Part shown: positions 2,600 to 47,308 of the stretch, in pieces | Position numbering within the stretch: the first letter of the stretch is position 1 | Layout of the letters: every line of letters begins with the position of its first letter | Assembly: GCA_032622095.1 (NCBI GenBank) | Contig: CP136067.1 | Location: 42,265,549-42,329,548 of the forward strand | From: Siphonodentalium dalli | Lineage: Eukaryota > Mollusca > Scaphopoda > Gadilida > Siphonodentaliidae | Length of the DNA stretch: 64,000 nt | Direction: 5' to 3' | Position numbers and translations under genes: made by a program | Notes under the pieces: generated by a model | What the model was told of the DNA's origin: nothing | The model's input: only the letters and a program-made list of their open reading frames with translations | Databases searched by the model: none

Positions 2600-3221
2600 T
2601 TAACCCTGACTGAATATGCATCCTTCTCCACTTGTATATATGTGACCCGCCATATAAAATCCAGTCGGAAGTCGGGATTTTTGTACCCTGATCCAATGCA
2701 TTCTCTTATATATGCGGGTCGACCATAGGTCGCCTCGCATATATAAGAGAATGCATTCAATGGCCTAACAATTTTTTACAATTTTAATAATGTTTTCTTG
2801 TATTCTTTAACAATTTAATAATTTCACCCATACAGAGCCCCAGACAAACCTGAGCAGACGACACTCTTCTATATGCTTCTATATATGTGTGGGGCTCACT
2901 GCAGGATAATGGATGTTTTTTATTTTATGTCCTAAAAATTGTCAGAAACATTTATTAAAAAAAATGATAAAAAATTGTTAGGCCAATGCATTCTCTTATA
3001 TATGCGAGTCGACCTATGGTCGACTCGCATATATAAGAGAATGCATTGGCACAGGGTAAAAATCCCGACTTCCGACTGGATTTGATATGGCGGGTCACAT
3101 ATGTTCGTCTGTGTTTCCTCTGCTTTTAGTACATGAACAACCCTACGATTGTATAATGCACTGTTCCAGTGTATACTTATATAACTGAATGGGAGAATCC
3201 ATTCAGTGTAGAAAGGGTTAA
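2600..3221. mobile_element. TTAA-flanked piggyBac-like element hosting a nested MITE
   Basis: TTAACCCT at 2600 and AGGGTTAA ending at 3221 form imperfect terminal inverted repeats that continue with an ACTGAAT..TTCTCC motif on both sides. The right end matches single ends near 32.7 kb and 38.26 kb (TTAACCCTTTCTTTACTAAA type). The TTAA plus CCC terminus is typical of the piggyBac superfamily. Most of the interior (2638-3102) is a second element with its own terminal repeats, so this looks like a nested insertion. No transposase is present. Confidence 0.45.
2638..3102. mobile_element. MITE family B, copy 1, with two 67-bp hairpins
   Basis: Long terminal inverted repeats begin ATATGTGACCCGCCATAT and run about 50 bases. 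Just inside them lie the shared hairpins at 2693-2758 and 2983-3049. The centre (about 2835-2900) is a further imperfect palindrome bounded by GAGCCCC and GGGGCTC. There is no coding capacity. Family B copy 2 is at 5619-6067, with the centre in the opposite orientation. The superfamily is uncertain; TA flanks would fit mariner-type elements. Confidence 0.75.
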
Positions 3222-3262
3222 CTGTGTCTCTTTATATAATAGCCATATGGTCATATATAGAG

Positions 3263-4385
3263 GATCTACAATGAGCCCCAGTTTATAGCGGAATTTACAA
3301 ATCGAGTCAAGTAAATTAGGTTTGGATCGAAAATTTGGCGAGGTCCAGGCCTAATTTACTGGACGAATTTTGTAAATTCCGCTATAAACGTGACTCGTTG
3401 TAGATTCTATTTATTACATGACCAAAAACCTCGACCTGACTTATACTTAAGTCAACAGATGGGACGCAGGTTTGGAGTTTGGGATGATACCCGGGAAGAT
3501 TTGAAAGGGCTGTCGACCCTCTCCTACAACCCACTTTTGAATGCTGTAATTCCGCTGAAGAGCGTTTGTAGGGTTTGTGAGTTTGTAAGTAGATTGATAT
3601 CTACCCATACACAGTATGTGTTTGCCTACTGTACATGGGGTGAATGCCACCGCAGCAAGAAGCAAAGCCCCACCCCCATTCCGAACCCGGACCGACAATG
3701 AAGACTTACCTTGTTTTCTTTGTGAGTTTGTGCGTTGATATATATATCATTGTAAGTTGTGAATGTTTGTAATGTATTGCCCTATGTTATGCTTGCATGT
3801 ACTCCAGTTGCCTTGGTCTGTTGTATTCCGGGCTTGTGCTACGGGCTCAACGCTAGGAAGAGGGTGCAATGCCAGCTGGTTGACTCCTCAACTCTTGGTG
3901 GTGCAATGCCCGCCTTCCACTCCTGTACGCGTGTCAGAACCCGTTGACCTGTTGTGTGATGTGGTCGCGGACTGAGGAGGCAGCTGAGGCCAGACTGGGT
4001 TGCTTGGTGTGTTTTCTGAAGGTTTGGGACGCGAAACTAACATCGGCTTCTATAAGGCATGCGATTGCGTTTCACGTAACTATGCGTTGCTTGCCCGCGT
4101 AAAGAAATAGTCCCAGATAAATAATGACTCTTCGGTGTATTTAATGGCGTATATTTAATGACATAACTTTTCAAACTCTTCATTCATAATAGTTTGTTGG
4201 AAAAATATTGAAGGCATAGTATTTTGAGACGTAGCGCCCGAAATATAAACAGACGACAATCCGGAAGTCAAAGGTCACAGGCACTATTTCCTGTTATGCA
4301 ACGAAAATTTTATATCACAAGTAAAAGAATGGGTTATTTAATGGAATAAGGGTAGGATCATGTAATAAATATAAGAGTTTGAAAA
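3263..4385 (+). mobile_element. Family C element, copy 1, interrupted by a 557-bp insertion
   Basis: A foldback at 3263-3406 (arms containing GTTTATAGCGGAATTTAC) is followed by the family C body. The body starts with TATTTATTACATGA and ends with GGATCATGTAATAAATA near 4385. It is interrupted after 3467. The other copies start at 4386 (inverted), 6214, 9340 and 26852. No reading frame with a known domain is present. Confidence 0.7.
3468..4024. mobile_element. Insertion flanked by an 8-bp duplication, possibly hAT-like
   Basis: TGGGACGC occurs at 3460-3467 and again at 4025-4032. In the uninterrupted family C copies this sequence occurs once, so the 557 bases between are an insertion with an 8-bp target duplication. 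That length fits hAT elements. I do not see clear terminal inverted repeats, so the class is not settled. The inserted DNA is visibly more GC-rich than its surroundings, and its short reading frames have no recognisable domain. Confidence 0.6.
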
Positions 4386-4717
4386 TTTTTGCCATAAAAT
4401 TCGCAAAGATTTCTTTGTTTATCTGGAACTATTTCTTTACGCGGGAAAACAACGCATAGTTACGTGTGAAACGTCATCACGTGCCGTATAGAAGCCGATG
4501 TTAGTTTCGCGTCCCATTTGTTGATTTAAGTATGTTTTGTCGAGGTTTTTGATCATGTAATATATAGAATCTACAACTCGTCCCAAGTTTATAGCGGAAT
4601 TTACAAAATTTGTCCAACAAATTGGGTCTAAAACTAGCCAAAGGCGAGTTTCAGACCTATAATTTACTGGACTCGTTTTGTAAATTCCGCTATAAACTGG
4701 GTACTCGTTGTAAATCG
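4386..4717 (-). mobile_element. Family C element, copy 2, inverted and 5'-truncated
   Basis: Reverse complement of part of the family C body, ending in the family foldback (4567-4717). It abuts copy 1 tail to tail, making a 1.4-kb imperfect palindrome over 3263-4717. Confidence 0.7.
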
Positions 4718-4970
4718 TCTGTATACGAAACGTGTCATATGGCCAGTAAGGCCGCTACTCTTTCATAATAATTCACAATCGGTGTTATGTGGAGTTCATC
4801 AACAGGTTATACACTTATAGTGCACCATACCATTAAACTCGGGCTCACGATCTCCGGTCACAAATAATGGAATAATATAGCCTGTTGTGATTGAATGGCG
4901 AAGTTAGAAGGTATTTTCAATATAAACTTCTCCAGCATCCCGGGGGGGGGGGGGCGTAGAAAGTATCCTC

Positions 4971-5437
4971 AAAGGCCCACTTAATTTTCGAACCCCCATA
5001 TCACATATATAAAATATATGCCATATTATATACCATTTGAAAGAGGAAGCTTCAAAACCTTTATTATCAACTTATCCGGTGTAATAAACTGTTAACATGT
5101 TGTTTTTGTTGAGTTACCGACGTGTTTTTGTGCTCATGTTTGATCTGTTTTGTGGTGGAAAGTGTTTTATTTTCAATGGATGGGGGATTAACTCTATATC
5201 TTAAAGATAGAACTTTATTCCCCTTCCATTGAACATACATTTTTAGTTTGAATTCTGTTGCGTTCTATGATTTCAGCTGTTTTCTATGTCGCTATGGGCA
5301 TGTTCTGAGACACAGACATTTCAAAGGTGACGAAATATAGTATTTTAATCATATTTTATGGCATAGATTGTTATTAAAACCGTATATCAAGTCACTGTAC
5401 AACAATAATTGGTGACTTGAAAATTAAGTGGGCATTT
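4971..5437. mobile_element. MITE family F, full-length copy
   Basis: The terminal inverted repeats read AAAGGCCCACTTAATTTTC on the left and the complement of AAATGCCCACTTAATTTTC on the right. An internal hairpin near 5167-5240 (TCAATGGA..GGGGATTAACTCTAT) is also present in the copy at 31801. A 3' fragment lies at 53338-53515. A G run of about 12 sits just outside the left end. No coding region is present. Confidence 0.75.
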
Positions 5438-5618
5438 AAGAGGGGTGTCAAGTGACCAATTATGAATGGGTATTTCATTGCAAATATCCGGAGCAAAAGT
5501 TACACGAAGCAGTTGTCCATGAGCTAAAACAGGCATATCATTAATCAATAATACAATTTAAATGGCGGGTGGGGTAGGTAATTAAATGATCAATTTTAGC
5601 TATAAATTGATTTTTGAG

Positions 5619-6067
5619 ATATGTGACCCGCCATATCAAATCCAGTCGTAAGTCGGGATTGTGTTACCCTGTGCCAATGCATTCTCTTATATATGCGAGT
5701 CGACCATAGGTCGCCTCGCATATATAAGAGAATGCATTGGCCTAACAATTTTTTATCATTTTTTTAAAATAAATGTTTCTTACAATTTTTAGGACATAAA
5801 TACCCTGCATGGAGCCCCACACATATATAGAAGCATATAGAAGAGTGTCGTCTGCTCATGTTTGTTTGGGGCTCTGTATGGGTAAAATTATAAAATTGTT
5901 AAAGAATACAAGAAAAAATTATTAAAATTGTAAAAAATTGTTAGGCCAATGCATTCTCTTATATATGCGAGGCGACCTATGGTCGACTCGCATATATAAG
6001 AGAATGCATTGGCACAGGGTAAAAAAATCCCGACTTACGACTGGATTTGATATGGCGGGTCTCATAT
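5619..6067. mobile_element. MITE family B, copy 2
   Basis: Same terminal repeats as 2638-3102, with hairpins at 5674-5740 and 5946-6012 and a central GAGCCCC..GGGGCTC palindrome at about 5812-5874. The two copies are closely similar over their whole length. Confidence 0.8.
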
Positions 6068-6125
6068 ATAGAATGAAAAAACTAGAATTTTGAAAAATCA
6101 ATATAATAAATAAATACACCAACAT

Positions 6126-6925
6126 TTAACCCTTTCATGACTGCAGCTTCCTGAAAATTTGCGAAAGCGCTGTGCCAATGCATTCTCTTACATGTATATA
6201 TATATATATATATAGAGGATCTACAACGAGTCCCCAGTTTATAGCGGAATTTACAAAACGAGTCCAGTAAATTAGGTCTGGACCGAGCCTTTGGCGAGGT
6301 ACAGACCTAATTTACTGGACGAGTTTTGTAAATTCCGCTATAAACTTGGGACGAGTTGTAGATTCTATTTATTACATGATCCATAACCTCGACAAAACAT
6401 ACTTAAATCAACAAATGGGACGCGAAACTAACATCAACTTCTATAAGGCATGCGATGACGTTTCTCACAACTCTACGTTGTTTGCCCGTGCAAAGAAATA
6501 GTCCCAGATAAATAAAGACTGTTTGGCGTATTTAATGGCGTATATTTAATGACATAACTTTTCAAAATCTTCATTCATTATAGTTTGTTGAAATTATATT
6601 GGAAGCCATAGTATTTTGAGACGTAGCGTACGGAATGTAAAGAAACCACAAACCGGAAGTCAAAGGTCACCTGGCACTATTTCCTGTTATTAAACGAACG
6701 TTTAATATCACAATTTATAGAATGGGTTTATTGAATGGAATAAAGGTAGGATCATGTAATAAATAGCTATATATATGCGAGTCGCTAATAGGGCGCCTCG
6801 TATATATTAGATAATGCATTGGCCTAACACTAATTGCCTTGTTCTTGATAGACAGTGCATACTCTTATATATGCGAGGCTCACTTTAATGCTGCACGAGC
6901 GCAGCCCCCGTCATGAAAGGGTTAA
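6126..6925. mobile_element. piggyBac-like MITE family P2, copy 1, split by a family C insertion
   Basis: TTAACCCTTTCATGACTG at the left and CATGAAAGGGTTAA at the right give TTAA target sites plus CCC termini, the hallmark of piggyBac elements. A 67-bp hairpin starts at 6176 and is broken at its TATATA stem; its other half resumes at about 6770. The 6214-6768 family C element therefore inserted into the hairpin. The intact relative is at 7861-8122. Confidence 0.75.
6214..6768 (+). mobile_element. Family C element, copy 3 (complete, nested)
   Basis: Foldback 6214-6363 with loop CGAGCCTTTGGCGAG (6284-6298), followed by a body running from TATTTATTACATGATCC to GGATCATGTAATAAATA. It is the clearest complete copy, about 555 bases. 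A (TA)n run at about 6188-6209 lies at its left junction. Confidence 0.75.
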
Positions 6926-7860
6926 ATAGAACAAGTTTAATAAGTATCTATTAATTCCAATATCACACCCTATTAATTCCAATATAACACCGAGTGACAC
7001 CTGGAGAAATATGTGACTGTAAATCTTGCTCGGGAGATTTGCACGTAAATCCCCGTTAAACGTTCCCCACTTGAGCTCATTAAATTAAAACAGAAACACT
7101 GTAATAGAAAGTATCAGGTATAATACTCTTTTCCCTGTAGATCAGTGTAGATGAATATATATTTTTGTATTATTGGTGTTTGTGTCTCATTGTCGTAGCG
7201 CCCGTTATGGCGTGACAGTCGATCTCGACAAAGCGGTGCTTCCGTATTTCAGGGACATTCTAGCTGGTATCCATTTGCCTGTCCATCCCATTTCCGGAAT
7301 TGCCCGGCTGATACGGTTTTCTACTTCCGGTTAGACATATGACGTGTATCTGTTCACACGCACTGTGTACTGTAACGGGCACGGGGCAACCAAAAGCAAT
7401 TAAATTCACATAACGATTGCGTCAAAACCAGACCATTGAACTAGTCACGCGCTTGATAGTCTGAATAAACAGCAGGAAATCCCACTACTTACAAGAAGCA
7501 TTACGTCAGTACCAGTCAATCACAACATTCCGCGGTAAAAGGTGAAGCCGATCAGAAGATTGTCGTAATTCTTTCAGCGATCGCGATTCCAGTAAACCAC
7601 GTCACATAGCCAAGAATAGCAACAGTCTGCGTAATAGAATTTCTGCCTAATTTCACACAGTTACACATTTAAAGATTACGACCACAAAAAGTAACTAACT
7701 ATACAACACTGAAACGTGTTATAAAGAATCCAGAATTGACCAATATTATCTAATAAATAGAATAGAATTAATTATTTAGAATAATTTCAACAATTATCAT
7801 CGAATTAGTTATTCGCGAAAACGAAGCCGAAATGAGATATCTGGCAATAGTAAAACTATT
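6926..7860. other. Stretch without recognisable gene
   Basis: Apart from a small direct repeat (CTATTAATTCCAATAT) near 6947-6985, I see no coding signature, RNA gene or known repeat here. Confidence 0.55.
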
Positions 7861-8122
7861 TTAACCCTTCCATGACTGGAGCTTCCTCACATTTTGTGAA
7901 AACCCTGTGTCAATGCATTCTTTTGTATCAGCGAGTCTCCCATATAGGGAGCCTGATATATGAAATAATGCGTTGGCCTAACAAAATTTACCTTGACCTT
8001 GTAAGCCAGTGCACTCTCTTATATATGCGAGGCTCCGTGTGTGAGACTCGCATATATAAGAGAATGCACTGGCAAACGAACTTAATGCTGCACCAGCGCA
8101 TCTCCCGCCGTGAAAGGGTTAA
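7861..8122. mobile_element. piggyBac-like MITE family P2, copy 2 (intact, 262 bp)
   Basis: It is bounded by TTAA at 7861-7864 and 8119-8122, with termini CCCTTCCATGACTG and GTGAAAGGG. It contains a diverged hairpin at about 7910-7977 and a well-preserved one at 8006-8072 whose arms start CCAGTGCACTCTC. Paired changes on both arms keep the stem base-paired. Confidence 0.8.
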
Positions 8123-8306
8123 TGCGAAATATGAACGACGATATCATACTGTGGGGATTGGCGGGGAAACATATGGTGGTAACAGGAAGGGTGTTGAAAT
8201 GCTTCAGACTATCGGATGCGTAGCTAGTTCAATGCGCCTTAATTGGCACTGAGTCGCAGCCATTGTGTATTCATCCAGCCCCATTCCATTTTTAAGTGCT
8301 ACAGCT

Positions 8307-8450
8307 CAAAGTTCTGAAGTAGCATTCCATAAACATTGTATGGAGCTTTTCAATATTCATGAATTCCATATATGGAATGCTACTCCAGAAATTTGACATG
8401 TAACACGAAAAAACGGATAGTTCCAATATGACCGCGCCTCAGTGACAAGG
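8307..8450. repeat. Foldback family J, copy 1
   Basis: The arms at 8307-8330 and 8372-8397 (GTAGCATTCCAT and complement) surround a palindromic centre. The right flank (CCAATATGACCGCG..AGTGACA) is also shared with the copy at 21276-21440, so the repeat unit extends beyond the hairpin. Confidence 0.65.
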
Positions 8451-8838
8451 CATGGTTTCAATCAGACTGAGGCGAACGCCAATGTACGATGTTGAAATTT
8501 GAATCTAGATGGGAGAAAATTCGGTTATGTTATTATGAACAAGTTCCAATAAATCTGATTTTATTTTTAGAAGAAAAGGGTTTGGTCTGTCCATTGTGGA
8601 TTTCTAATTCTGTTTTAATTTTAAATCAATCTGAATTCTGCCCATTTCGGGTCCTTGTTAATTTGAGTTGAAAACCGTGTGTTGAGGTGAAGAATCACAC
8701 ATCGATGTTTCTCTCTGCGTGGTCACATAAAGACGATGACGATTGTGAGTTCCGGTGACCATGCAACCAAAGACAAAACAACGGTTATTGGAACATTGCT
8801 TTGTTCCTTCAGCAGTCGTTTGTATAGACAATCTTTCT

Positions 8839-9110
8839 TCAAGAATAGAAACTCATGTATTTCATGATTTTAAGATAGTAAGCCAGTGCATGGTCGTAAC
8901 ACTCCAACTGCGTCATATCCGGTGTGCACTCGAAGCCAAGTTTTTTCCCGTCACGTTTCCCCAGCAATTGTCTGCCCTTTCCGGCCTTGTGCCTCGCGAC
9001 CTTGACGTAAGCCTTGATGTAGGCATCAAAGCATGCTTTTCTGTCCATATGCGGCGGACATTGAAATTCTGTTCCAGCTAATCTCTTGTCCATCGTCGAT
9101 TCGTATTCAT
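8839..9110 (-). CDS. Probable 3' terminal exon of an unrecognised small cysteine-containing protein
   Basis: Reading on the minus strand, a pyrimidine-rich tract ending TTTTCAG (9111-9117) is a good splice acceptor. After it the frame is open for about 90 residues to a stop at 8839-8841, starting EYESTMDKRLAGTEF. The protein shows an internal twofold repeat, F-x-C-x-P-x-M-x4-C-[FY]-D followed by an A/Y-rich helix. The first repeat begins FQCPPHMDRKACFD and the second FECTPDMTQLECYD. A basic linker (about residues 36-52, with KAGKGRQLLGKRDGKK) joins them. The paired cysteines could be disulfides of a secreted protein, but no signal peptide exon was found upstream; the intron probably holds the family C insertion at 9340. 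Domain-like regularity and the splice site argue for a real gene. I do not recognise the family. Confidence 0.55.
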
Positions 9111-9339
9111 CTGAAAATAATTAAAGCGACATGTCATTTTTACGGCAGCTTGTATAGAGCAGAAACGCATAGTTCGCTTTATACTATAATCAGAGGTTTT
9201 TATATACCTGGTTATCAACATCTATATATGGTATGACCACTACTGTCCATTCCAGTGGCATTTCATCGGCGTGACATATAAGATTGAATGGACAGTGGGT
9301 TCTCCCCGAAGGCCATTCTTATAGGATTACATATAAGAT

Positions 9340-9780
9340 CATCTACAACTCGTCCCAAGTTTATAGCGGAATTTACTAATCGAGTCCAGTAAATTTGGTA
9401 GGCTCGGCCCAGACCTAATTTACTGGACGAGTTTTGTAAATGCCGCTATAAACTGGGGACGAGTTGTCGATTCTGTTTATTACATGATCCAAAACCTCGA
9501 TAAAACATACTTATATCTACAAATGGCACGTGAAACTAACATCGGCTTCTATAAGGCATGCGATAACGTTTCACTTAACTATGCATTGTTTGTCCGCATA
9601 AAGAAATAGATCTATATAAATAAAGACTCTTTGACGTATTTAGTGGCGCAAATTTAATGAAATAACTTTTCAAACTCTTCATTCAATAGGGTTTGTTGTA
9701 AAAATATTGAAAGCCATAGTATTTTGAGACGTAGCGTCGGAATATAAACAGAAGGCAAACCGGAAGTCAAAGGTCGCAAA
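9340..9780 (+). mobile_element. Family C element, copy 4, 3'-truncated
   Basis: The foldback (9345-9472) and most of the family C body are present. Similarity stops after CCGGAAGTCAAAGGTCGC, so the right terminal repeat is missing. Confidence 0.7.
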
Positions 9781-10318
9781 TAGATATAGAATTTACTATA
9801 TAATATTGTATAAAGTTCAAACGGGTCTTCGAAAAGAAAAAAACCTCACAGTGTACATCTGTGTGTTCCCTGGCATTGCTAACATACTAAATTGTGCAAT
9901 TTACCCCATGTGTTATCTATATTCCGCTCCAGTCGATCAAGAATGACCATAACTTATTATGAACATTGTTTCAATATTTTTCCAAGATTTCAGATATGGG
10001 AAAAAAACACAATATATGATTACATGTAAGAAGAGCAGATTGGTCTCATTCACCCACAATGAACGTGCACAGAGTTTAGAGTTTAGAGTTTACTGCGTCA
10101 GTATAGATTTATTAACCGCGGTGAGAGAGGGGCGGAATAGTAATAGGTAATATTGACTCCTTTCACACAATTCTGCTCGTTTCATGGCTAAATTCAGGAA
10201 TATGTTCGCGGCAAAGATTCATAATTATACAACATTATTCAAAATCACACTGTAAAATTTAATAACGTTATAACTACGGTAATGCACCGTCAACTTAGTT
10301 GCCAGTACAATCCCTGTC
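9781..10318. other. Stretch without recognisable gene
   Basis: AT-rich sequence with no coding or repeat signature that I recognise. Upstream exons of the 8839-9110 gene could lie here, but none is convincing. Confidence 0.5.
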
Positions 10319-10492
10319 GAAATAACAGTATACCGTTGATACATTGTACTGTTGAAGTAAACGGTAGGATACTGTTGAAATAACAGTATACCGTTGATAC
10401 ATTGTACTGTTGGAATGCACGGTAGGATACTGTTGAAATAACAGTACACCGTCGATACATTGTACTGTTGGAATAAACGGTATGATACTTGT
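10319..10492 (+). repeat. Three tandem copies of a 58-bp unit
   Basis: The units start at 10319, 10377 and 10435, each beginning GAAATAACAGTA. Within each unit GTATACCGTTGATAC is followed by TGTACTGTTG. Related CAACGGTA motifs in inverted orientation occur at about 10919-10990, suggesting a larger degenerate repeat. Confidence 0.8.
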
Positions 10493-11048
10493 AGTAATAT
10501 AGCTGACTAGAAGATCCAACAAAAATAATTACTTTGATTCGTTTATTAGTAGAGAAATTAGCGAAAATGTGAAAAGTGATCCGTTATAACTAATACTTAT
10601 AGAGTGAATGACTGCAGTGCAAACCAATTTTACTAGGTGACCTATTTTCGCGGTCGCTATTAAAACATCGCAAGTGGTTAAATAGGGCTTGTTTACACTT
10701 TCTTTAGCCCGTTCGGTAGACCGTTAGTGCTATTTAAACGGCTTGGAACCTGTCCCAAGCTGTTGAAACATATTAAAAAGTAGGCCTACTAAATTATAAA
10801 ACAAATCTCCCGCGAATGACGGAGACAGACACTGAGACATCAATTAATGGCGAATTTACCCGAGATGCATTGCGAATCTCACAAGGGAGGTGATCCTATC
10901 CATACCTCGTGTTTGTGCAACGGTACTTGGCCGTCAAAACTAGCAACGGTATAATACCGTAGGCAAACCAACGGTATCATATTGTTAAACCAACAGTGAC
11001 AAAATACAGTGCAAGTTGTGTTAGATTTTACAGAAATGTCTCGGATAC

Positions 11049-11639: not shown

Positions 11640-11939
11640 TTGATCAGCTATAACAAGAAAAATACTAAGCGAAAAGTTATCACAAAACTTGATCAAGAAA
11701 ATATGAGTAAAGAATATTCCACTATTCAATATCCGGTAGCTTTTTTGAGGCATGCTTGCTTACGGATCGCCAATGAGTATGTAGTATCCTAAATGTGTAT
11801 GCATATGTACATATGTTACAAAATATATTCTCTCTAAAATGCAGTAAAATGCAGATAAAATTGGCCAGTGCCAATTGTACAACGGCGGCCATGTTGGACA
11901 CCATTTTGTCTGTGATTTCTACACGGCCACCCAGTTTTC

Positions 11940-14603: not shown

Positions 14604-14604
14604 T

Positions 14605-21542: not shown

Positions 21543-21939
21543 TTAACCCTTTACCCAACAAACCGGCCAAAAACGGCCATATAAAGCTGCAACAGCCTAA
21601 ATTATCTTGGGTCTGTCTCAATAAAACCATACAAATATAGATATCATTGGAACCGGCTCATTGACCACATTGTGATGGTTACAGTTATGCCCTGTGCCAA
21701 TGCATTCTCTTATATATGCGAGTCGACCATAGGTCGCCTTGCATATATAAGAGAATGCATTGACCTAAAAAAATTTTTTTTACATTTTTTACCATTTTTT
21801 CTTACATTCTTTAACAATTTTATAATTTTTAATGTGTTAAGCCAATGCATTCTCTTATATATGCGAGGCGACCTATGGTCGACTCGCATATATAAGAGAA
21901 TGCATTGGCACAGGGCCGTTCTGTTGGGTAAAGGGTTAA
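21543..21939. mobile_element. piggyBac-like MITE family A, copy 1
   Basis: TTAACCCTTTACCCAACA at the left and TGTTGGGTAAAGGGTTAA at the right give TTAA sites and a CCC terminus. Between them lies a unique arm (with CGGCCAAAAACGGCC and GGAACCGGCTC), then hairpins at 21697-21763 and 21842-21908 separated by a T-rich spacer. Four other copies in the window are nearly identical. No transposase is encoded. Confidence 0.9.
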
Positions 21940-25545: not shown

Positions 25546-25937
25546 TTAACCCTTTACCCAACAGAAGGGCCCTGTGCCAATGCATTCTCTTATATATGCG
25601 AGTCGACCATAGGTCGCCTCGCATATATAAGAGAATGCATTGGCTTAACACATTAAAAATTATAAAATTGTTAAAGAATGTAAGAAAAATTGGTAAAAAA
25701 AAGATTTTTTTTAGGCCAATGCATTCTCTTATATATGCGAGGCGACCTATGGTCGACTCGCATATATAAGAGAATGCATTGGCACAGGGCTAACTGTAAC
25801 TATCACAATGTGGTCAATGAGCCGGTTCCAATGATATCCATATTTGTATGGTTTTATTGAGACATACCCAAGATATTTTAGGCTGTTGAAGCTTTATTTG
25901 GCCGGTGTTGGCCGGTTTGTTGGGTAAAGGGTTTTAA
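25546..25937. mobile_element. piggyBac-like MITE family A, copy 2
   Basis: Opposite orientation to copy 1. Hairpins at 25577-25643 and 25716-25782. The right end reads AAAGGGTTTTAA rather than AAAGGGTTAA, a two-base insertion at the junction. Confidence 0.9.
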
Positions 25938-29136: not shown

Positions 29137-29536
29137 TTAACCCTTTACCCAACAAACCGGCCAAAACCGGCCAAATAAAGCTTCAACAGCCTAAAATATC
29201 TTCGGTCTGTCTCAATAGAACCATACAAATATGGATATCGTTGGAACCGGCTCCTTGACCACATTGTGATAGTTACAGTTATGCCCTGTGCCAATGCATT
29301 CTCTTATATATGCGAGTCGACCATAGGTCGCCTCGCATATATAAGAGAATGCATTGGCCTAAAAAATATCTTTTTTTAACACTTTTTAACATTTTATCTT
29401 ACATTCTTTAACAATTTTTTAATTTTTAATGTGTTAAGCCAATGCATTCTCTTATATATGCGAGGCGACCTATGGTCGACTCGCATATATAAGAGAATGC
29501 ATTGGCACAGGGCCGTTCTGTTGGGTAAAGGGTTAA
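29137..29536. mobile_element. piggyBac-like MITE family A, copy 3
   Basis: Same orientation as copy 1. Hairpins at 29291-29357 and 29439-29505. Its right TTAA abuts the terminal repeat of the next element, which starts within two bases. Confidence 0.9.
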
Positions 29537-32339: not shown

Positions 32340-32750
32340 GATGTGGACCCCACATTGGTAAGTGCGGATATATATGAGATATGCATGAGTGGTTTGCAAA
32401 CGGAACCTCTAAGACCCGCAACGTATACCTTGGATCGGAACGAAGAAAATCCATTGACACAGGGTTTTCGCAAAATTTCAGGAAGCTCAAGTCATGGAAG
32501 GGCTACTGGAACAGAAAATGTGCCTATTTTAGAACATCACACTATTCATGTGTAAAGTGTGTATGTACTAAACCTTTCCCACCAATTAATATGAATTTTT
32601 CCAAGCCTGTCGTCTGCTTATAGTACCTGAACATCCCCCTCCAAATGAATAGTATAGACTATTCGAATGGTGTGGCAATGTATACTGTTATAACTGTGTT
32701 GGTGGGAGTCTGGGAGAATCCATTTAGTAAATAAAGGATAAAATTGGAAT
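32340..32750. mobile_element. Single-ended relic of a TTAACCCTTTCTTTAC-type element
   Basis: GGGAGAATCCATTTAGTAAA at 32710 is the diverged reverse of the ends at 3190-3221 and 38255-38290. The adjoining sequence (CTGTCGTCTGCTTATAGTAC) resembles 3118-3135. No partner end was found. Confidence 0.4.
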
Positions 32751-34228: not shown

Positions 34229-34628
34229 TTAACCCTTTACCCAACAGAAGGGCCATGTGCCAATGCATTCTCTTATATATGCGAGTCGACCATAGGTCGC
34301 CTCGCATATATAAGAGAATGCATTGGCTTAACACATTAAAAATTATAAAATTGTTAAAGAATGTAAGAAAAAATGGTAAAAAGTGTTAAAAAAAGATATT
34401 TTTTAGGCCAATGCATTCTCTTATATATGCGAGGCGACCTATGGTCGACTCGCATATATAAGAGAATGCATTGGCACAGGGCATAACTGTAACTATCACA
34501 ATGTGATCAAGGAGCCGGTTCCAATGATATCCATATTTGTATGGTTCTATTGAGACAGACCGAAGATATTTTAGGCTGTTGAAGCTTTATTTGGCCGGTT
34601 TTGGCCGGTTTGTTGGGTAAAGGGTTAA
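34229..34628. mobile_element. piggyBac-like MITE family A, copy 4
   Basis: Oriented like copy 2. Hairpins at 34260-34326 and 34408-34474. TTAA at both ends, 50 bases after a family G element. Confidence 0.9.
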
Positions 34629-37095: not shown

Positions 37096-37096
<1 letters not shown>

Positions 37097-37126
<30 letters not shown>

Positions 37127-37138
37127 CTTCTTCTTCTT
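37097..37138 (+). repeat. (TTC)n microsatellite
   Basis: About 13 TTC triplets directly downstream of a CATCA-rich stretch. Confidence 0.95.
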
Positions 37139-37890: not shown

Positions 37891-38254
37891 CACACCTTTT
37901 AATTAATAGCTACGAGCAACATGACGTAACAACTTGTTCACATAACATACACAAAATAATACATCATCATACGATATATATATATATATATATCCTCGGT
38001 TGCTAAGATCGTAATCACAATCACCGGTCGTAGTCTTGGTGTATCTATCCGGAAGATCTATGGTGGCGGGGTAGAGTTGGCGTTGTTTTAGCACGTGCTA
38101 TGCTGTTGGCGGTCATGCTTAATTGCTATGATGCGAGTAGGGCAAACTGATGCCGTTACGAACAAGTACCGTTGTTTTTTCTAAAGTCGCAATTTTCACA
38201 GTGTTTGGCTAATCCGAGTTTAGATGCACGCCCGTATGATTCCGGTATTGGGTT

Positions 38255-38350
38255 AACCCTTTCTTTACTAAATGGGTTTTCCCATCCAGTTATATAAAAG
38301 TATATATTGGAATGATCTCTTATCCATTTGAAGGGAGTTCAGGAAAAATG
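38255..38350 (+). mobile_element. Isolated end of a TTAACCCTTTCTTTAC-type piggyBac-like element
   Basis: TTAACCCTTTCTTTACTAAA then TGGGTTTTCCCATCCAG, similar in reverse to 3140-3221. No opposite end was identified. Confidence 0.45.
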
Positions 38351-38380
38351 AGCTGACGACAAACATACCAAAATACAAGA

Positions 38381-38985
38381 AACCCCATAGTCAGAAATGG
38401 TAACGCGCTCAAGATCATATATTATATACCCATGATTGTAATTATAGAATCTTTTGTATTTATATTATTTGTAATTGGCATAGCTTATCACAAACCAAAA
38501 ATCAATATTATTGATATGTAAACGCCAATAAACGAAATTGAAATTCTCAACTACACCTTTTATCGGGCTCGGCCTCGGGGTCACACTACAGCGCCTCGGG
38601 GTCGTACTACAACTTTTAATGTGTCAAAATAATTAACATTCTATACATAGAACCCCCATGCGCTATGGCGGCGCCCAGGCGAAACAAGAATTTGTACATT
38701 AGTATACACGCGGCGCGCGTAATAATAGAAGAGTAGAAGGATTACTATATGTACCGGTGGAAACTGTTCAGATAACAAGAGAAACAAAGGTCTCTGACCA
38801 TCAAAATCTCACACGAATGGCTTATTTCGCGCTCCGCGTGTATAATGTTTCGCTGATTCTTGGTATACATGTGCCATGGGCCTTTTATTTATAGAAATGG
38901 GAATTTTTGGGACGGATTAAAAGTGGAACTGCGACCCGGAGTCCGAGTCCGGTAAAAGGTGTAGTTGGGAATTGGGAAATTTGTT
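38381..38985. mobile_element. Foldback family H, copy 1
   Basis: Both flanks of the element carry versions of the same arm. CAACTACACCTTTTATCGG..CTCGG near 38552 is inverted as CCGGTAAAAGGTGTAGTTGG near 38950, and GCGCATGGGGG/CCATGGGCC and CGCGTGTAT segments recur on both sides. The left outer part (GGTAACGCGCTCAAGATCAT) matches the reverse complement of 43806-43830. No coding region is present. Confidence 0.6.
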
Positions 38986-39349
38986 TTTACCCCAAAATCG
39001 GAAATCTAATTCAGAAACCCAAAATGGTTTTGTAACGGGATCGACATGAGAATCATATTTACAGTTTGATCATCTGCTAATTGATTAGGTGATACAGCTT
39101 ACTGGGTAACAAAACCACTCGATCATGGCAGTGTACTATCAAACAATGTAATAAAACAGTAATGAGGATTAAGACTAACGAATCCATTGTTTATCATAAG
39201 GCTGAATGGTAGATGGTGGGTAGTGGTATATTGTCAAGTAACAATTATGGGATTAAAGAAGTCTAGAACTAGCTGATGTGCCGGACTTCGTCTGGGCTAT
39301 TTAGGGATTTCTTTGTGATCGCCTCCGTATGAGTAGAATATACACTGTC
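38986..39349. other. Stretch without recognisable gene
   Basis: No supported feature. Confidence 0.45.
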
Positions 39350-39672
39350 TCCAGAAACATGCATATATGAGCGTATATAGCGAGGTGAAGGTCAATGACA
39401 CGGTCGCACGTGAAATTGGACCCGCCCATATTGTTCCAGGGATCAAAGCAGGTCTACATACCAAACTTGAGTCGGGTCGATCGAGGTCCAGAAACATGGC
39501 TATTTGAGGGTATGTGAGCGAGGTCAAGGTCAAGGACACGGTCGCATGTTAAATTGGACCCGCCCATATTGTTTCCGGGATCATAGTAAGCCTACATACC
39601 AAATTCGAGTCGGATCGGTCGAGCTGTGTTGAGCCTATAACACACACACATACATACATATACACACATACA
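39350..39672 (+). repeat. 137-bp tandem pair followed by a CA/CATA tail
   Basis: TCCAGAAACATG starts units at 39350 and 39487. Each contains GGTCAAGGTCAA-type DNA and AATTGGACCCGCCCATATTG. The second unit runs into ACACACACACATACATACAT and then AAAATATATAATAAAT. A simple-repeat tail after a tandem 3' region is typical of invertebrate retroposon 3' ends. Confidence 0.7.
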
Positions 39673-40742
39673 GACAGAAGTTCCAAAATATATAATAAAT
39701 GTTAGATGTTAAATAAAACAAAAATATTCATTAATTGTGAGACCAGAAAATGAGTCATAAAGAAAGGGTCGATAAATGGGTTAAGTGGATTAATCGACGG
39801 TCGTTAAACCCAACATTCCGATTGGACGCGTTCTGCGTGTCGTTGGAACACGGAGGAGTGTCATATCTCGGGGCATGTCCTTATTGCCCCGATTAAAATC
39901 TGTGAAATTGAAAAGTTGAGTCTGATTATGCACGCGGTGATATAAATCAAGTGTATCGATAAAAGACGAATACTGCTATAACCCGTAGATACACTTTTGA
40001 TGTGACCTAAATTTGCTCTTGGTGTCTAAATAAGCATAAAGTGCGGACTGGGAATGTAGTGTGGGCCATTCTGCTGACGCCAATAAGGTAACTATGGAAA
40101 CTTCCAACATGGAAGCAAATCAGTCAATATACTATCACTCATAAATAATTTCCCGACTCAGTCCAAATATATTGGGGTTCGAGATATTTGATAGGGTGCG
40201 ATATATCTAAATATCAATAAATCAATAAAAATTGAGATCTGTGTTGAAAGATGGCACCAGTCTAATATAAGCATGTTTTATTGTCAGTTTCACAGTATGG
40301 GCATCGTGATGTTGATAGGCATCTGCATTTAGTCAAAAACAAAAATTTAGTCTGAAGTGTTGTCAAATATAGTGCACACCATATGTCGACGCTCAATGAT
40401 TAGTTCAAATAGTTACATATTGTATAAATGTGTGGAAACACGTATGCCCTTGGGATGCAGAAAATGCATGCATTCGGTTGGGTGACAAAATGCAAAGTCA
40501 ATTTTTTCCTTGTGGGTGATTGGCAGAATTTACAACCATTTCAACGAAATCACGTCTGAGGTGCACATCGTAATTGACAAAGGTAAATTACAATACAAGT
40601 CGGTCATGATTTTCACGTTACAAGTGCATCTGGATGAAACAGCTGAAATATACCGCTTATCTTTATACGGTGCTAAGACTAACTTAATTCATTATAGCAG
40701 CCTGATTTCATAAATATAAGATTAGGTATATAATAAATATAG
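39673..40742. other. Stretch without recognisable gene
   Basis: No frame has domain or splice support. Confidence 0.5.
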
Positions 40743-40884
40743 AATATACGCATAGTGTTTCTGAATAACAAATTTAATCCACGAGTGAGATTGGCGATTT
40801 ACACAACGAGCTTCCGCGAGTGGTCTAAATCGCCAATCCCACGAGTGGATTAAATTTGTTATTCAGAAACACTATGCGTATATT
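40743..40884. repeat. Large foldback, ~59-bp arms, CGAG loop
   Basis: Arms 40743-40801 and 40826-40884 pair almost perfectly (AATATACGCATAGTGTTTC with its complement). The loop contains CGAGCTTCCGCGAG (40807-40820). The left flank resembles that of the 841-894 foldback. Confidence 0.9.
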
Positions 40885-40887
40885 TTG

Positions 40888-41136
40888 TTTATGCCACGAT
40901 CTTTACAGTGCAATGGATAAACACTTTTCCGTTCAAATTGTATGAAGAAAGTTTAATCCACCCTGCGAAGTTTATGCCACGATCTATACAATGCGATGGA
41001 TAAACACTTTTCCGTTCAAATTGTATGAAGAAATTTTAATTCACCCTGCGAAGTTTATGCCACGATCTATACAAAGCGATGGATAAACACTTTTCCGTTC
41101 AAATTGTATGGAGAAAGTTTAATCCACTCTGCGAAG
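40888..41136 (+). repeat. Three tandem copies of an 83-bp unit
   Basis: Units start TTTATGCCACGATCT at 40888, 40971 and 41054 and contain GGATAAACACTTTTCCGTTC. They follow the foldback directly; together they may form one element. Confidence 0.95.
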
Positions 41137-41470
41137 TTTAATCAACAAGATATAGGCAAGTTTAATCAACAGGTGTTGATTAAGTGTAAAATTTAAACAG
41201 ATGGCTTTATTTATATAGTAAGATAGGCGATCGTGGTATAATATCGATATAATCCCCACAAAGGCGCACGATCATATTTCAAAGAGCAGCTTCGTGCACT
41301 GATGACTGTATTATGTCGTTAGAAAGTGTTGCGTTTTAACGACAACACCAGCTGGTTGTTGAAGTCAAAATATGAGCTCAACCAAGAAGAAATTGACAAC
41401 AAGTCGAGTTTGGAGCCAAAACATGCCCGCATGTACGCGGTAAACATAACCGAAATCTGCTATAATCCAG

Positions 41471-41599
41471 TATAATCCGCATTATTTGAATGATTCAAGA
41501 TGGCGTCCAGCATGGTTTGGAATACCGCATCCGCTATAATCCGCATTAGAGAATTTGAATGATTCAAGATGACGTGCAGCGTCGTTTTGAATACCGCAT
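41471..41599 (+). repeat. Two tandem copies of a ~64-bp unit
   Basis: TATAATCCGCATTA..GAATGATTCAAGATG recurs at 41471 and 41535, each ending GGTTTGGAATACCGCAT or close to it. Confidence 0.85.
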
Positions 41600-43032
41600 G
41601 CATGCTGTCGTCAATATGATCGTAATTTGAAATTATTTGCATGGAAATGTCGCATTTACGAATTAAAATCTCTTTCGAATTTTATTATTTCTACTTAGCA
41701 TACATTATTTAAATAATTTTTTGCATCAAATTTGTGATACAAAAACAAAAACGAAGCGGCATATAAACTGGACGTAAATAAATGCAAGTTATAGGTCGGT
41801 TTGGGGGGGCAGCTGTCATGTCTAATTGCCTTGTAAGAAGTTGCCTTGTTTATTTTTCGTGGCACCACTTACTGTGTGGAATCCTAAACATTCAGAGTGA
41901 ATAATAGTAAGTTATTTTGTGAAGTACCATCAATCACTATGAATAACTCACTATTCATGATGTATAGGTTGCTGGGTAGATTTCCACATAACTAATTGAC
42001 ACTTAAATAAATAGACTGGTATCAGTGGCAAGGGGCTCAGTTTGAGATTTACGCAAGAAGTTGGTTCCCTTTGTCGTGTATGAAATGTTGGAATTCCCTG
42101 CCGTAGAGCTCCAGTCGGACGACATTCTCGTCTATACTGCAATAATGAGATGAGATGAGTCTAAGAAGAGCTGTGTGAAGACTGCTGGTTCAATCTGTTT
42201 GAAGTATACGTTCCACCGTGAAGCTGTCAAAGTCTGTTAGTTTGTTTACTTCATCTTATCTCTCTGGAATTCTAGGGCTGCGGATTATGTTCTGTAATTA
42301 AGTGTTGTCGGTCTTACAATGGTTCTCGGCTCATCACCAACTAATCCGAACTTTACAACGAACATGCTATGGCTTCTAATTAAACAATACATTTATAAGA
42401 CTATATTCAAACCAATTAAATTATCGCTAAATGTTTTCCTCAAAGAATTTAATTATAGATACCAATTACCAATGTGAGAAGTATACCGCACGATGTCAAT
42501 CGAAACAACAAGAATTTTCGAAAAACTGGTTCCTTTTAGAAAAGGCTATACACATACGCACGAGTTAATACCAATAAACTTGAGTGTCCTGGAAATTATC
42601 TCTTCACCAGTTCGAAAACTCACTTAATTACTATACCCAAGAAATACTATTACCGACCACCCCCCCCACCCCCCCCCCCCAATAACACAATGTCGTCCAT
42701 AGTTAGATGTCGTACCGATGCGCCGTACACAGGAACAAAGTTTAAAGACTTAAAATCTGAATTACTATATAAAAATTAACATATATTCGATTTATCCTTA
42801 TTCACATGTAAGTCACTGGGAGTGCATATGATGTACGAAAGACGTGTAAATGAAGTGAGCGAGATGTGAGCGAATTGGAAGAATGTCACTTTACCTACTA
42901 TAGCATGTAACCCTGTATGTATTTACATTCGTTCATTGATGTATGTTTATTCCAATAAAAATAAGTGTTATCGGTCTTCTTCACATGAGTGAAATAGTTT
43001 TCAGGTACTGTATATATGGACGCTCTGCTGGT
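41600..43032. other. Stretch without recognisable gene
   Basis: It contains a C-rich run at about 42660-42681. No supported coding region. Confidence 0.5.
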
Positions 43033-43319
43033 TCAAGGCTGCACGTTTAGTCTGTATTCTGTTCCGGTAAGCAGTTTGGCCTTAATTTCTGCTCTGGCAT
43101 CAGCGTTCTTGTTTGCTCTAACATAACGGTAAACTTCGTGTATATTGTTGAACTTTACTGCTTCAAAATTTAGATATCGGATAGTTGATTTTTTTTTATT
43201 TCTTCTTCCCTCTTCTCAATTGCTGAATTGATTTCCTCTTTCATGATGGTTTTCCAGATCTCAGTGGTTGGAGTTTTGTTAATCAGATTATATGCATTAG
43301 CAAGGTTGTAAATTGTCAG
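43033..43319 (-). pseudogene. LINE ORF2 C-terminal fragment with a frameshift
   Basis: On the minus strand the frame from 43319 reads LTIYNLANAYNLINKTPTTE then WKTIMKEEINSAIEKREEEI and stops. One base is gained or lost in a run of T/A at about 43189-43198. In the shifted frame it continues STIRYLNFEAVKFNNIHEVY, RYVRANKNADARAEIKAKLL and TGTEYRLNVQP, then stops at 43033. The pattern (L+YLN..., H-x-x-Y/W, then KAxIKAKLLTGTY) is characteristic of the region between the reverse transcriptase and the zinc-knuckle in several invertebrate non-LTR retrotransposons. The CxxC..H..C knuckle that should follow is replaced by a stop. Upstream the sequence runs into foldback family H, which probably truncated it. 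Confidence 0.6.
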
Positions 43320-43329
43320 CAGACGACAG

Positions 43330-43835
43330 ATGTAGGAAAACCAGCTCTTATTATGCGCGCTCCGCGTGTATGTATACTGGTGTACAGATTCTTGTTTCGC
43401 CTGGGCGCATGGGTGTTTTATTTATAGAATGGGAATTTTTGGGAGGATTAAAAGTCGAACTGCGACCGGAGGCCGAGTCCGGTAAAAGGTGTAGTTGGGA
43501 ATTTCAATTTCGTTTATTGTCGTTAACATTATGTCAATATAATGTTGATTTTTGGTTTGTGATAAGCTATGCCACTTACAAATAAAAGATATGAAAAAGA
43601 TCATTTGTAAGTCTTATATTTCAACTTTTATATACATGTTTCGTTCTGCAGATAACTGGGGGTTGTAGTCGGAGACGACCGAGTCGGCCGCCGGTTCGTT
43701 AATTAGGTGCTGGTTGTTATTGTTATTTTAACGGAATTCTGAGTTGGTCATTCGCAAAACCAATATATTTTATATTCTATAATTACAATCATGGGTATAT
43801 AATATATGATCTTGAGCGCGTTACCATTTCTCACA
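43330..43835. mobile_element. Foldback family H, copy 2 (half element)
   Basis: TTTATTTATAGAATGGGAAT and GGTAAAAGGTGTAGTTGGGA match 38888-38970, and GATCTTGAGCGCGTTACC near 43809 matches the complement of 38398-38420. Only one arm is recognised, so the copy is about half the length of the 38-kb version plus internal sequence. Confidence 0.55.
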
Positions 43836-45985
43836 TTGGTTTTCTTGGCATGAATGTTACTGAAATTAACGATAGCTGATGCTGATCTCGTACCGCACTG
43901 TTCTCTCAGGGGAGATGACTCGGTAGAACATAAATTTATGAGGTTCTTTTTCTGGTGGCTATTACGGACGAAGTTAATTCATGTATCTTCACATATAAGT
44001 TACTTTTATATAACGCAATTATTCTATGTTACAATTTCGAATTCATATATAACATATAGCACACTAACGTATATATATATATCACCTAAATGTGAATTCC
44101 AACCGATTTCACCCATTTTGACGTCAATTTCATCCTTTCTTTATCGAATGGATTCTCACATTCACTCACAAACGTGTACATTGGATTGGTATATTATTCA
44201 TATGTGACGGTGATATATTTACATGTATAAGTAAGTTTTGTAGGAATTAATACTAATTCTCATTTATACATGCTTATTACTTATTTGGTTTAAACATAAT
44301 AATCTGTCTAGTCAATCTAGCACTCTTAATTCACTTGACTATCTTGTTCTTATCTTTTAGCCCAATCAAATCCCAAATCCAAATATAAACCAGCCCAATA
44401 ACTAAATTAACGCATTACCGCGTAATAATTTTCCCGGTAAATAAAAAGTGCGAAGAAAATCGAACAGGACGTTCACAAACAATTATGTTTAAATCATAAA
44501 GTATATTTTATCTTTACAAAACTACAATGTAGAATTAATTTAAATGGAAAAGCACAATAACTAAAACATACAGGACCTAAATCTTTCCGAATTGGGTAAT
44601 TCTTGGAATACTTGGAATCATGGAAATACTAGGAGTTCGATGTATAGCTCATCAATCATTCATCATTTGTTCTGTGGTGTACGTCCAGCATGTTGCATGA
44701 CCATATATTCGTCTCATCGATGTCATACTATTCATGTGTGTTGTTCGGATAATTGTGATTGATTCAGATTCAAAGAATACAGAATGTAATGTATAAACCT
44801 TCTCATTATGCACACCAACGCCCCTACACCAGAGACTCAAGTTACGAAGCGTGGAAGACATTGTCTCTCCTTTTATAAATGTATAAAACTCTATGGATTG
44901 GGATTGGGTTATCTCGCGAACAGTAGGTTACACCGACTGGGAGACATAGCCGAGTTACAATTACATAGGGCTTTGCATATGGATGGGGGTTCAGGAAATA
45001 TGAGCAGACGACAGAATGGCGAAAAGATAATGCAACTTCAGTAGGATTTCTATTCATTCGTGGCCAATGACCGTTTGTTGAACTTATTATCTGAACAGTT
45101 CCTAATGGAACTATTCGGCACTGATAATTTAGTAAAGAAAGGATTAAAGATAGTTTTAACTCTTCCTTGAAATGTTTATATCAATTTCAGGATAAACAAT
45201 TATATATATGAATCGAGGATATACCTGTCCGGAAAAGCTTCTATCAATTAATCTAAATTTTTTTAGAATTTCTAATCACATTCTTGGGATTTTTTAGGCA
45301 CTATTTTTAGAACAGACATCTTGCGAAATCATTCTGAGCGTTCGTGGAGCGTACCAAGAGGGAGAAATATATATTGTTAGCACCCTCAATCCCGAAAAAA
45401 GTTTATATCAACTAGGAGATTCGACGCATGACCGCGAGTCAGAGTCACGCTCAGCTGGATCCGAAACAAACCACTTCTTTGTGCCTTTCATATGTAAATA
45501 ATATACCAAATCTCCACTTTTATCTGTATTTTATTCACAAGAAGCTAGTTGTTGTCTTGAAATCGGGTTATATAAAAACTATGTTGTTGTTTTGTTGTAG
45601 TTGTAATTGTGTACCGGAAGAGCTCCACTATCTTTAAGTGTGGTACTGTTCTAATATATTTATCAGTACACGCTATTTGTATATATGTCGATGTAATACT
45701 AAAATCATTCAAAACGTGGCGCCTATATAATTATGGTACATATTCGATATTTCTTTTATTCTGACAGCCATCTTGGACGCCATGTTGAATTGTGAATTTC
45801 CCACAAAGAGGATTTTACCAGATTTTAGACGTGTTGTTAAAAACTGTCCTCCACATAGAATAACATCAAACTCGTCATGTCGACGATTTCTCCAAGGTGC
45901 AACGGCTCACTTACATGCAGACTAGAAACAATACAGAATGCAGTGTGGACTGCAAGTCTGACAATTATTACATATTAATTACCAA
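43836..45985. other. Stretch without recognisable gene
   Basis: ATCCTTTCTTTATCGAATGG near 44132 and TTTAGTAAAGAAAGGAT near 45129 may be the two ends of one old element of the TTAACCCTTTCTTTAC type, about 1 kb apart. No TTAA is kept on the left and no transposase is visible. GATTCAGG..GATATATATGAATCGA near 45180 resembles the 18.08-kb sequence of the large tandem duplication. Confidence 0.4.
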
Positions 45986-46125
45986 ATGAATGTACTTGGT
46001 CTGTTATAGTACCCAATCTCTACCAGAGCGCACCAGTCATATACTCACTTCTCATCCCTTTCTTATATATTATTATCCATCCCAACTAACACCATTTCCG
46101 ATTGGACAAAAGCCGCCACGTGATA

Positions 46126-46620
46126 GTCCTGGAAAAAGTCATATTGGACTCCCGAAAGTCATATTGGACTCCCGACTGTACAATATGACTTTTCATATTG
46201 GACTCCGTGACGTCACGAATTAACTCTATTGCGAAATGAATCGGTGAAATTGTGATGCGCGAGCAACATTGATGGATTTTAGCAGACGTTTCACTTCCGC
46301 ATTGAGTTTTTTTCTCGCTTCCGTGTTTACTTTTCCAAATCATGCTTTCTGATGATCAATATACGGTACAGGCTTTTATAGAGAATTAAGTGCCGACAAA
46401 TACCAAAAATAACCACAAAAGTTTTATTTCCAAAATTTGGATAAACATACAGATGGATAATAAAAATGTCATTATACAATTTTGTGTACAGTATGAGTTT
46501 TTCTTGTACTCGTCCAGGTTGGGGTGAAAAGTCATATTGGACTCGACAGTGGCGTGTCTCGTCCAATATGACTTTTCACCACAACCTGGACTCGTACAAG
46601 AAAAACACATACGGTACACA
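46126..46620. repeat. Foldback cluster built on AGTCATATTGGACTC
   Basis: The outer foldback has arms at 46482-46542 and 46561-46620 that pair with few mismatches (TTTTTCTTGTACTCGTCCAG and complement). The tip sequence AGTCATATTGGACTC also occurs three times at 46137-46207. The two sites together suggest a family of foldbacks sharing this tip. Confidence 0.8.
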
Positions 46621-46908
46621 ACATTGTATAATAACTTTATATTATCATCGTGGGGGTAAACCCTGCACGGAGTTTGTATTGGTAGTACACATCATAATCA
46701 GAATTATTTGGTGACTTGTTATCATTAATGAACTTCCTGTATATACGTATGCCGATATATATCAAGGGGTGGATATATGACCTGTCGGCATATTTTACTG
46801 TATATTCATCACCAATACAAATCTTACGTTACTGTCAGAACGTCAACATGTTTCAATAAATTTATAAGAGTTTAACGATATATATATATGCACGTAGTTC
46901 ATTAATGA
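46621..46908. other. Unrecognised spacer
   Basis: No gene or known repeat. Confidence 0.4.
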
Positions 46909-47308
46909 TTAATCCTTTACCCAACAAACCGGCCAAAACCGGCCAAATAAAGCTTCAACAGCCTAAAATATCTTCGGTCTGTCTCAATAGAACCATACAA
47001 ATATGGATATCATTGGAACCGGCTCCTTGACCACATTTTGATAGTTAGAGTTATGCCCTGTGCCAATGCATTCTCTTATATATGCGAGTCGACCATAGGT
47101 CGCCTCGCATATATAAGAGAATGCATTGGCCTAAAAAAAATCTTTTTTTAACACTTTTTACCATTTTTTCTTACATTCTTTAACAATTTTATAATTTTTA
47201 ATGTGTTAAGCCAATGCATTCTCTTATATATGCGAGGCGACCTATGGTCGACTCGCATATATAAGAGAATGCATTGGCACAGGGCCCTTCTGTTGGGTAA
47301 AGGGTTAA
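46909..47308. mobile_element. piggyBac-like MITE family A, copy 5
   Basis: Oriented like copies 1 and 3. Left end TTAATCCTTTACCCAACA (one change from the family), hairpins 47063-47129 and 47211-47277, right end AAAGGGTTAA. Confidence 0.9.

Follow-up and report, generated by a model that had tools for sequence, protein, structure and literature searches.

A 67-bp hairpin shared by small transposon families with unrelated ends in the scaphopod mollusc Siphonodentalium dalli

Why and how families of miniature inverted-repeat transposable elements (MITEs) with different ends come to share one interior has been unclear since the coral MITEs known as CMITEs. The question is raised by a 64,000-nucleotide stretch of the genome of Siphonodentalium dalli (assembly GCA_032622095.1, contig CP136067.1, positions 42,265,549 to 42,329,548 of the forward strand), referred to here as the window, which lies on contig C7 of a 2.23 Gb assembly of nine contigs. 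In the window a 67-bp hairpin lies within elements of three families, A, B and P2. A sequence-only reading had taken it for a module captured by, or required by, several transposon families. Capture is supported: four families with target duplications of their own share a cassette around the hairpin, three of them have an identical hairpin consensus, the P2 hairpins are more diverged, and A elements carry B-type sequence beside the hairpin at several junctions. As to a requirement, constancy of the hairpin in A lineages is suggestive and that in B is weak. The hairpin is probably the core of an internal MITE cassette that arose in old P2 elements, was taken up by families A, C and B, and has been exchanged among them by recombination.

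The hairpin fold, i.e. 26-bp arms with a single T/C mismatch, a 5-bp inner stem and a 3-nt loop, was reproduced as first described by folding the sequence both as RNA (-50.9 kcal/mol, z -13.9) and as DNA (-33.2, z -14.2). The 20-mer at the arm tip has 33 matches in the window at up to three mismatches (shuffle mean 0.01). Of the sixteen two-armed 67-bp hairpins present, ten belong to the five A elements, four to the two B elements and two to P2; with the broken remnants at 6175 and 6755-6877 the first estimate of about 18 copies was a fair one. The hairpins are carried by elements ~240-460 bp long and form an inverted pair in A, B and P2 of the window, as had been claimed; family C, which was met outside the window and has to be added to the original list of hosts (A, P2 and B, all of which do carry the hairpin), usually has a single one. 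The 67-bp unit is real but is only part of a longer shared cassette, CCCTGTG-hairpin-AT-rich spacer-inverted hairpin-CACAGGG. The elements of the window are as follows, with the strand in brackets where one was assigned.

2642-3098: family B element, GTGACCCGCC...GGCGGGTCAC, ATAT either side, assigned by ends and flanks
2693-2759 (+): hairpin 1 of the first B element, 3 differences from the consensus
2826-2897 (-): second shared segment (GGAGCCCC...GGGGCTC), at the B centre, by blastn
2983-3049 (-): hairpin 2 of the first B element, inverted, 1 difference, giving a perfect stem
5623-6063: second family B element, ATAT either side
5674-5740 (+): hairpin 1 of the second B element, identical to the consensus
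5808-5885 (+): second shared segment, at the centre of the second B element, by blastn
5946-6012 (-): hairpin 2 of the second B element, identical to the consensus
6126-6925: P2 element (TTAACCCTTTCATGACTG ... CGTCATGAAAGGGTTAA), split by nested repeats
6175-6194, about 6767-6822, and 6852-6877: hairpin remnants within the split P2
7861-8122: complete P2 element, TTAA at both ends, two diverged hairpins
7910-7976 (+): P2 hairpin 1, 20 of 67 positions off the A/B/C consensus (ungapped)
8006-8072 (-): P2 hairpin 2, 10 of 67 positions off the A/B/C consensus
21543-21939 (+): family A element, TTAA at both ends, hairpins 21697-21763 and 21842-21908
25546-25935 (-): family A element, distal TTAA altered, hairpins 25577-25643 and 25716-25782
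29137-29536 (+): family A element, TTAA at both ends, hairpins 29291-29357 and 29439-29505
32447-32506 (-): P2 end, truncated, with a decayed hairpin tip
34229-34628 (-): family A element, TTAA at both ends, hairpins 34260-34326 and 34408-34474
46909-47308 (+): family A element, TTAA at both ends, hairpins 47063-47129 and 47211-47277

The ends assign the hairpin to distinct families. Those of A (TTAA CCCTTTACCCAACA), P2 (TTAA CCCTTTCATGACTG) and C (TTAA CCCTTTGAGTGCCAGG) adjoin TTAA, and their TTAACCCTTT ends have the terminal CC[C/T]T motif of piggyBac/TTAA MITEs; B elements end in GTGACCCGCC and have 4-bp AWWT flanks. In a sample of loci from contig C1 chosen by their ends without regard to the hairpin (40 A, 20 B, 20 C and 20 P2; L061-L160, where L110/L112, L123/L125 and L151/L153 are duplicated loci and L119 and L120 were selected because of odd spacing), at least one hairpin arm was present in 40 of 40 A, 20 of 20 C, 19 of 20 B and 18 of 20 P2 loci. 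Among complete copies, all picked by a first end with TTAA, the second end likewise had TTAA in 38 of 39 for A, 15 of 17 for C and 4 of 5 for P2. Identical AWWT flanks were found in 16 of 18 complete B copies, with L110 and L112 being one duplicated locus (ATAT 10, AAAT 3, AATT 2, ATTT 1 and TTAA 0), as against a mean of 7.3 and a maximum of 13 in 2,000 permutations. A 2-bp duplication between A and T would look the same as a 4-bp one; in either case family B is a non-TTAA element.

It is scarcely credible that there is a single hairpin-bearing family and that the other ends come from elements inserted in or around it, which the sequence-only reading had named as the finding that would tell against a module. 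Nesting does occur, e.g. in the split P2 at 6126-6925 and at locus L120, where a B element (around 17-470) is inserted at ATAT within a P2 hairpin arm. As a full explanation of the differing ends it was rejected on account of the separate target duplications, the regular position of the hairpin in sampled copies of all four families, the arms in loci sampled by their ends, and the 32,042 A, 18,296 B (counting both ends of each element) and 5,410 C exact ends genome-wide. Exact P2 ends number 11,759, a figure inflated by 37-bp tandem arrays.

Going inward from the outer end, one and the same consensus is obtained, at 67 of 67 positions, for the distal (n=52) and proximal (n=56) hairpins of A and for those of B (n=42) and C (n=25). 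Their orientation is also the same, the mismatched T lying in the outer arm and the C in the inner one. The mean differences from this consensus (0.52, 0.25, 0.88 and 0.84, respectively) are biased low, since the pooled loci were partly found through the hairpin itself (an exact half-arm for L001-L020, a perfect hairpin for L021-L040). Hairpins of P2b elements with the old spacer differ from their own consensus by a mean of 6.9 (n=7) and those with the new spacer from theirs by 2.3 (n=3); P2a hairpins form small or mixed groups. The old P2 inner stem is CTCCC/GGGAG, as against CGACC/GGTCG elsewhere, and the spacer differs as well. The older stem form (CAGTGCATTC...TCTCCCATA) has 1,224 + 1,165 exact matches genome-wide, and old hairpin-spacer units form tandem arrays at L002 and L155. 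The new stem together with an AT-rich spacer resembling that of A, B and C is already found in some P2 elements (L006, L148). Because its hairpins are more diverged, P2 is the likely source, and the simplest order suggested by these sequences is from old P2 to new P2 to A, B and C. The most likely origin of the cassette would be in P2, an old TTAA family in which tandem runs of hairpin-spacer units are also seen, with later uptake by A and C, which have TTAA and piggyBac-type ends, and by B with its AWWT flanks; each family would be copied by whichever transposase recognises its ends.

The nearly identical CCCTGTG and CACAGGG boundaries in the different hosts could also be the ends of a transposon, i.e. 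the cassette itself might have inserted into A, B, C and P2 and then been amplified by these hosts, and truncated cassettes with ~17-31 bp flanking duplications (L033, L173) point the same way. This is unlikely, since no direct target duplication was seen by eye beside the cassette in A, both cassette flanks in B and C are inverted copies of the host end, and the outer flank is unassigned in only 2 of 30 hairpins of L001-L020. Long flanking duplications, unlike those of a plain TTAA insertion, are seen beside cassettes or pieces of A and B at L033 (475-619 and 644-1058), at L173 and, with 72 bp, at L162, and on either side of the complete element at L163 (29 bp). They come perhaps from break repair or aborted excision.

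Spread of the cassette by recombination is indicated by hybrid junctions. L135 has a C distal end, one hairpin and a B right end; in L111 a B left end leads into an A cassette and a portion of the A body; and L139 is a C element with a B centre. A 93-mer running from B outer sequence through the hairpin into A spacer has 57 + 51 = 108 exact matches distributed over all nine contigs. Among the 20 of these 108 copies that were fetched for inspection, 17 keep the A terminal sequence and have B-type sequence from before the cassette; L162, L173 and L174 are truncated on the left. The points at which the 17 hybrids switch from A to B fall into seven types, with the length of T-runs disregarded, and L179 switches at a shared ACCC. 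One junction, CAACAG joined to TCGGGATT..., recurs in seven elements with differing flanks, six of which have intact TTAA on both sides, and is most simply explained if the hybrid itself transposed. These junctions indicate that the families exchange DNA beside the hairpin, so that a transposon interior can travel between families. The exchange would take place in the repair of breaks or gaps, with the hairpin and the homology beside it guiding gene conversion or template switching, and the resulting hybrids would then transpose.

The hairpin is extremely abundant. A 21-base half-arm has 152,164 + 151,927 exact matches in the genome (reversed control 0), and a 23-base core that includes the T/C mismatch has 61,817 + 61,549 = 123,366, or ~1 per 18 kb. 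Perfect cores made of two outer arms occur at 579 sites and those of two inner arms at 219 sites genome-wide; the T/C mismatch is thus kept in ~99% of hairpins with these exact stems.

Whether the hairpin is maintained by selection was considered in an alignment of 37 of the 40 A copies, L073, L078 and L094 having been dropped beforehand. The two hairpins diverge by 0.36% and 1.04% in total, the body by 1.71% and the spacer by 2.82%. Variants found in at least two copies, which are taken as changes in active lineages, affect 1 of the 134 hairpin columns as against 19 of the 128 body columns (p 7e-6), or 1 of 134 and 18 of 128 when the mis-aligned L072 is left out. This depletion is as expected if the hairpin matters for mobility and hints at a cis function or homogenisation; the same pattern could be obtained by homogenisation of the source copies, or if the body differences form one linked block.

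A number of points weigh against the proposed history of the cassette or against a function for the hairpin within it. The direction from P2 to A, B and C rests on divergence and similarity, without a tree. The recurrent CAACAG junction could have formed repeatedly at the same short homology in resident copies, and some T-run joints could be slippage. Singleton changes in A, which are mostly post-insertion, are no rarer in the hairpin (31 of 4881) than in the body (19 of 4728; p 0.12), or 19 of 4747 and 19 of 4600 without L072. In B, shared variants affect 2 of 134 hairpin columns, 9 of 220 interior columns and 5 of 74 columns of outer sequence, a weak trend in the same direction as A (16 copies, oriented by alignment score, with L112 and copies outside 380-500 bp, e.g. 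L119, dropped). Since B is not a TTAA element, a single piggyBac-binding role cannot cover all families, and in B the hairpin may be a passenger. Twenty sampled piggyBac transposase loci, each covering ~1.1-1.3 kb around the catalytic domain, were without A, B, C or P2 ends or the hairpin (chance-level partial matches only). In the window, other TTAACCCTTT-type ends (TTAA CCCTTT/CCCATT-type) at 3204-3221, 38253-38270, 63124-63141 and 63480-63497 have no adjoining hairpin arm and are possible hairpin-free controls.

Several of these results are also what would be found if the hairpin were a passenger in every family, with no role in transposition, spreading through palindrome breaks and their repair and owing its constancy to recent capture and to gene-conversion homogenisation among >100,000 copies. 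This is a substantial possibility, in keeping with the exchange documented by the hybrid junctions, with the equal singleton rates in A, and with a B hairpin hardly more constant than the remainder of the element. In addition, one of the two hairpins can be lost: A ends enclose a solitary hairpin at 6 of the 20 loci selected by their perfect stem, two of which (L026 and L028) have the same flanks, and at 1 of the 40 A loci sampled by their ends (L094, with an ordinary T/C stem). Against it stand the strong depletion of shared-variant columns in the A hairpin and the T/C mismatch, which both the old and the new consensus retain and which 123,366 cores have, as compared to 579 and 219 perfect ones, though simple palindrome correction would erase it.

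Maintenance of the hairpin at the RNA level, its transcript yielding small RNAs or acting otherwise as RNA, is very unlikely. The RNA fold is very stable, and paired changes are found in older copies: among 15 diverse hairpins 7 of 31 pairs are changed on both sides, and 16 cells are changed on both sides as against a shuffled mean of 7.2 (none of 500 as high), where the set consists of 67-base hairpins picked for recognisable arms and several changed cells represent one inherited change. In the consensus comparison from which these 15 were chosen, the old and new P2 labels were assigned automatically from the spacer, and the P2 groups are small, with 2, 4, 7 and 3 members of length 67. A DNA palindrome produces the same pairing pattern, and Rfam at gathering score gave no match in the window. 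The exact 26-base arm was found in no viral contig.

For the TTAA families a role of the hairpin in cis, by analogy with the subterminal palindromes of piggyBac, could be part of the cassette history. At the ends of piggyBac, two C-terminal domains bind an internal repeat, a palindrome of 19 bp; three imperfect palindromes are described for the left end of piggyBat (PMC7351741, PMC11707139, in the sections covered here). The likeness is that of palindromic sequence close to the transposon tip; the difference, as far as those sections go, is that the piggyBac and piggyBat palindromes are 14-19 bp protein-binding sites in autonomous elements and not a 67-bp hairpin common to several families. 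The parallel would cover the TTAA families, with none for B. Similarly A, C and P2 resemble piggyBac/TTAA MITEs in their TTAA duplication and CCYT ends, from which B departs in lacking TTAA, and no end-matched partner transposase was found among the 20 loci.

At least 128 piggyBac transposase matches are listed, many without internal stops, suggesting recent activity; some of the genes are in two pieces and several lie in repeated groups. Ends seen at the sampled loci are TTAACCCTTTATCTGC and TTAACACGTTGAGTGCC, and one transposon repeated in the genome (L046/L047) has TTAACCCTTTATCTGC ends with short palindromes nearby. In the search for an autonomous partner, a scan for TTAA plus inverted repeats gave one weak hit, and an all-against-all comparison gave ends for a few elements only. 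Inward-facing pairs of A ends ~3.2 kb apart (5927873/5931045 and 6377048/6380209) were rejected as autonomous elements; L065 and L075 have the same internal layout, and the pairs are thus read as one duplicated stretch. Two near-identical copies of a piggyBac-type transposon (L041 from 320; L045 near 3146) have TTAACACGTTGAGTGCCGG ends, with TTGAGTGCC in common with the family C end, a candidate lead to the C transposase.

The closest known system is that of the CMITEs (Wang et al. 2010), TTAA MITEs of two corals with six end families and one 75-base interior of unexplained origin that is more conserved than the ends; those of Acropora are ~100 bp long, with mostly CCCTTT-type ends, tandem forms and ~1,600 copies in A. 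millepora (from the parts of PMC2872659 drawn on here). The hairpin elements are of the same kind in that differing ends accompany one shared and conserved interior, the interior here too being more conserved than the ends, with one consensus in A, B and C between ends that are unrelated. In comparison with that part of the CMITE account, TTAA is not used by all families here, B being on AWWT, and the interior has a 67-bp hairpin that usually comes in pairs, within elements of ~240-460 bp with >120,000 cores and visible hybrids. The published CMITE 60-mer has chance-level matches only in this genome (10-14 bp, best E 0.57 among the matches listed). P-MITEs of Anopheles have interiors proposed to have been acquired by break repair from ectopic sequence; in contrast to the one shared interior and visible hybrid joints seen here, their interiors have no significant identity between families (PMC1562414, in the passages covered). 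The hairpin had been put forward as something not yet described. The principle is known from the coral CMITEs (PMC2872659, as covered above), and in the open-access literature no report was found of this hairpin or of a hairpin common to TTAA and non-TTAA MITEs, PMC2872659 being the only report found there on CMITE-type internal regions with piggyBac. What goes beyond the CMITE precedent is the non-TTAA host, the scale and the hybrids.

It is doubtful, though conceivable, that the cassette amounts to a second-order mobile unit and parasitises transposons, that it passes between families, including those using different transposases, by hairpin-guided recombination, that it raises the mobility of its TTAA hosts through subterminal palindromes, and that it so repeatedly builds new successful MITE families. 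With >120,000 cores, an older candidate source family, a non-TTAA host and recombinant intermediates, one of them at seven sites, the genome makes the sharing of interiors a testable question. MITE families can be mosaics, and classification by interior or by ends alone can consequently mislead.

Other repeated structures adjoin or contain the hairpin elements. The second shared segment (GGAGCCCC...GGGGCTC, ~76 bp) forms the B centre, is found inside the C element L139, and by blastn adjoins B, P2 or C elements at L113, L120 and L122; its folding is moderate (z -2.4). The P2 right end leads into tandem arrays of a ~37-bp unit, TTAACCCTTTCATGACGGGAGCT..., on contig C1 at 3257437-3273396, 4325740-4329315 and 4907344-4924003 and at locus L157; here a transposon end has become a satellite. 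On the same contig, at ~727000-926000, hairpin-bearing units recur every 14,558 bp and further on about every 11,175 bp, which is a large tandem duplication.

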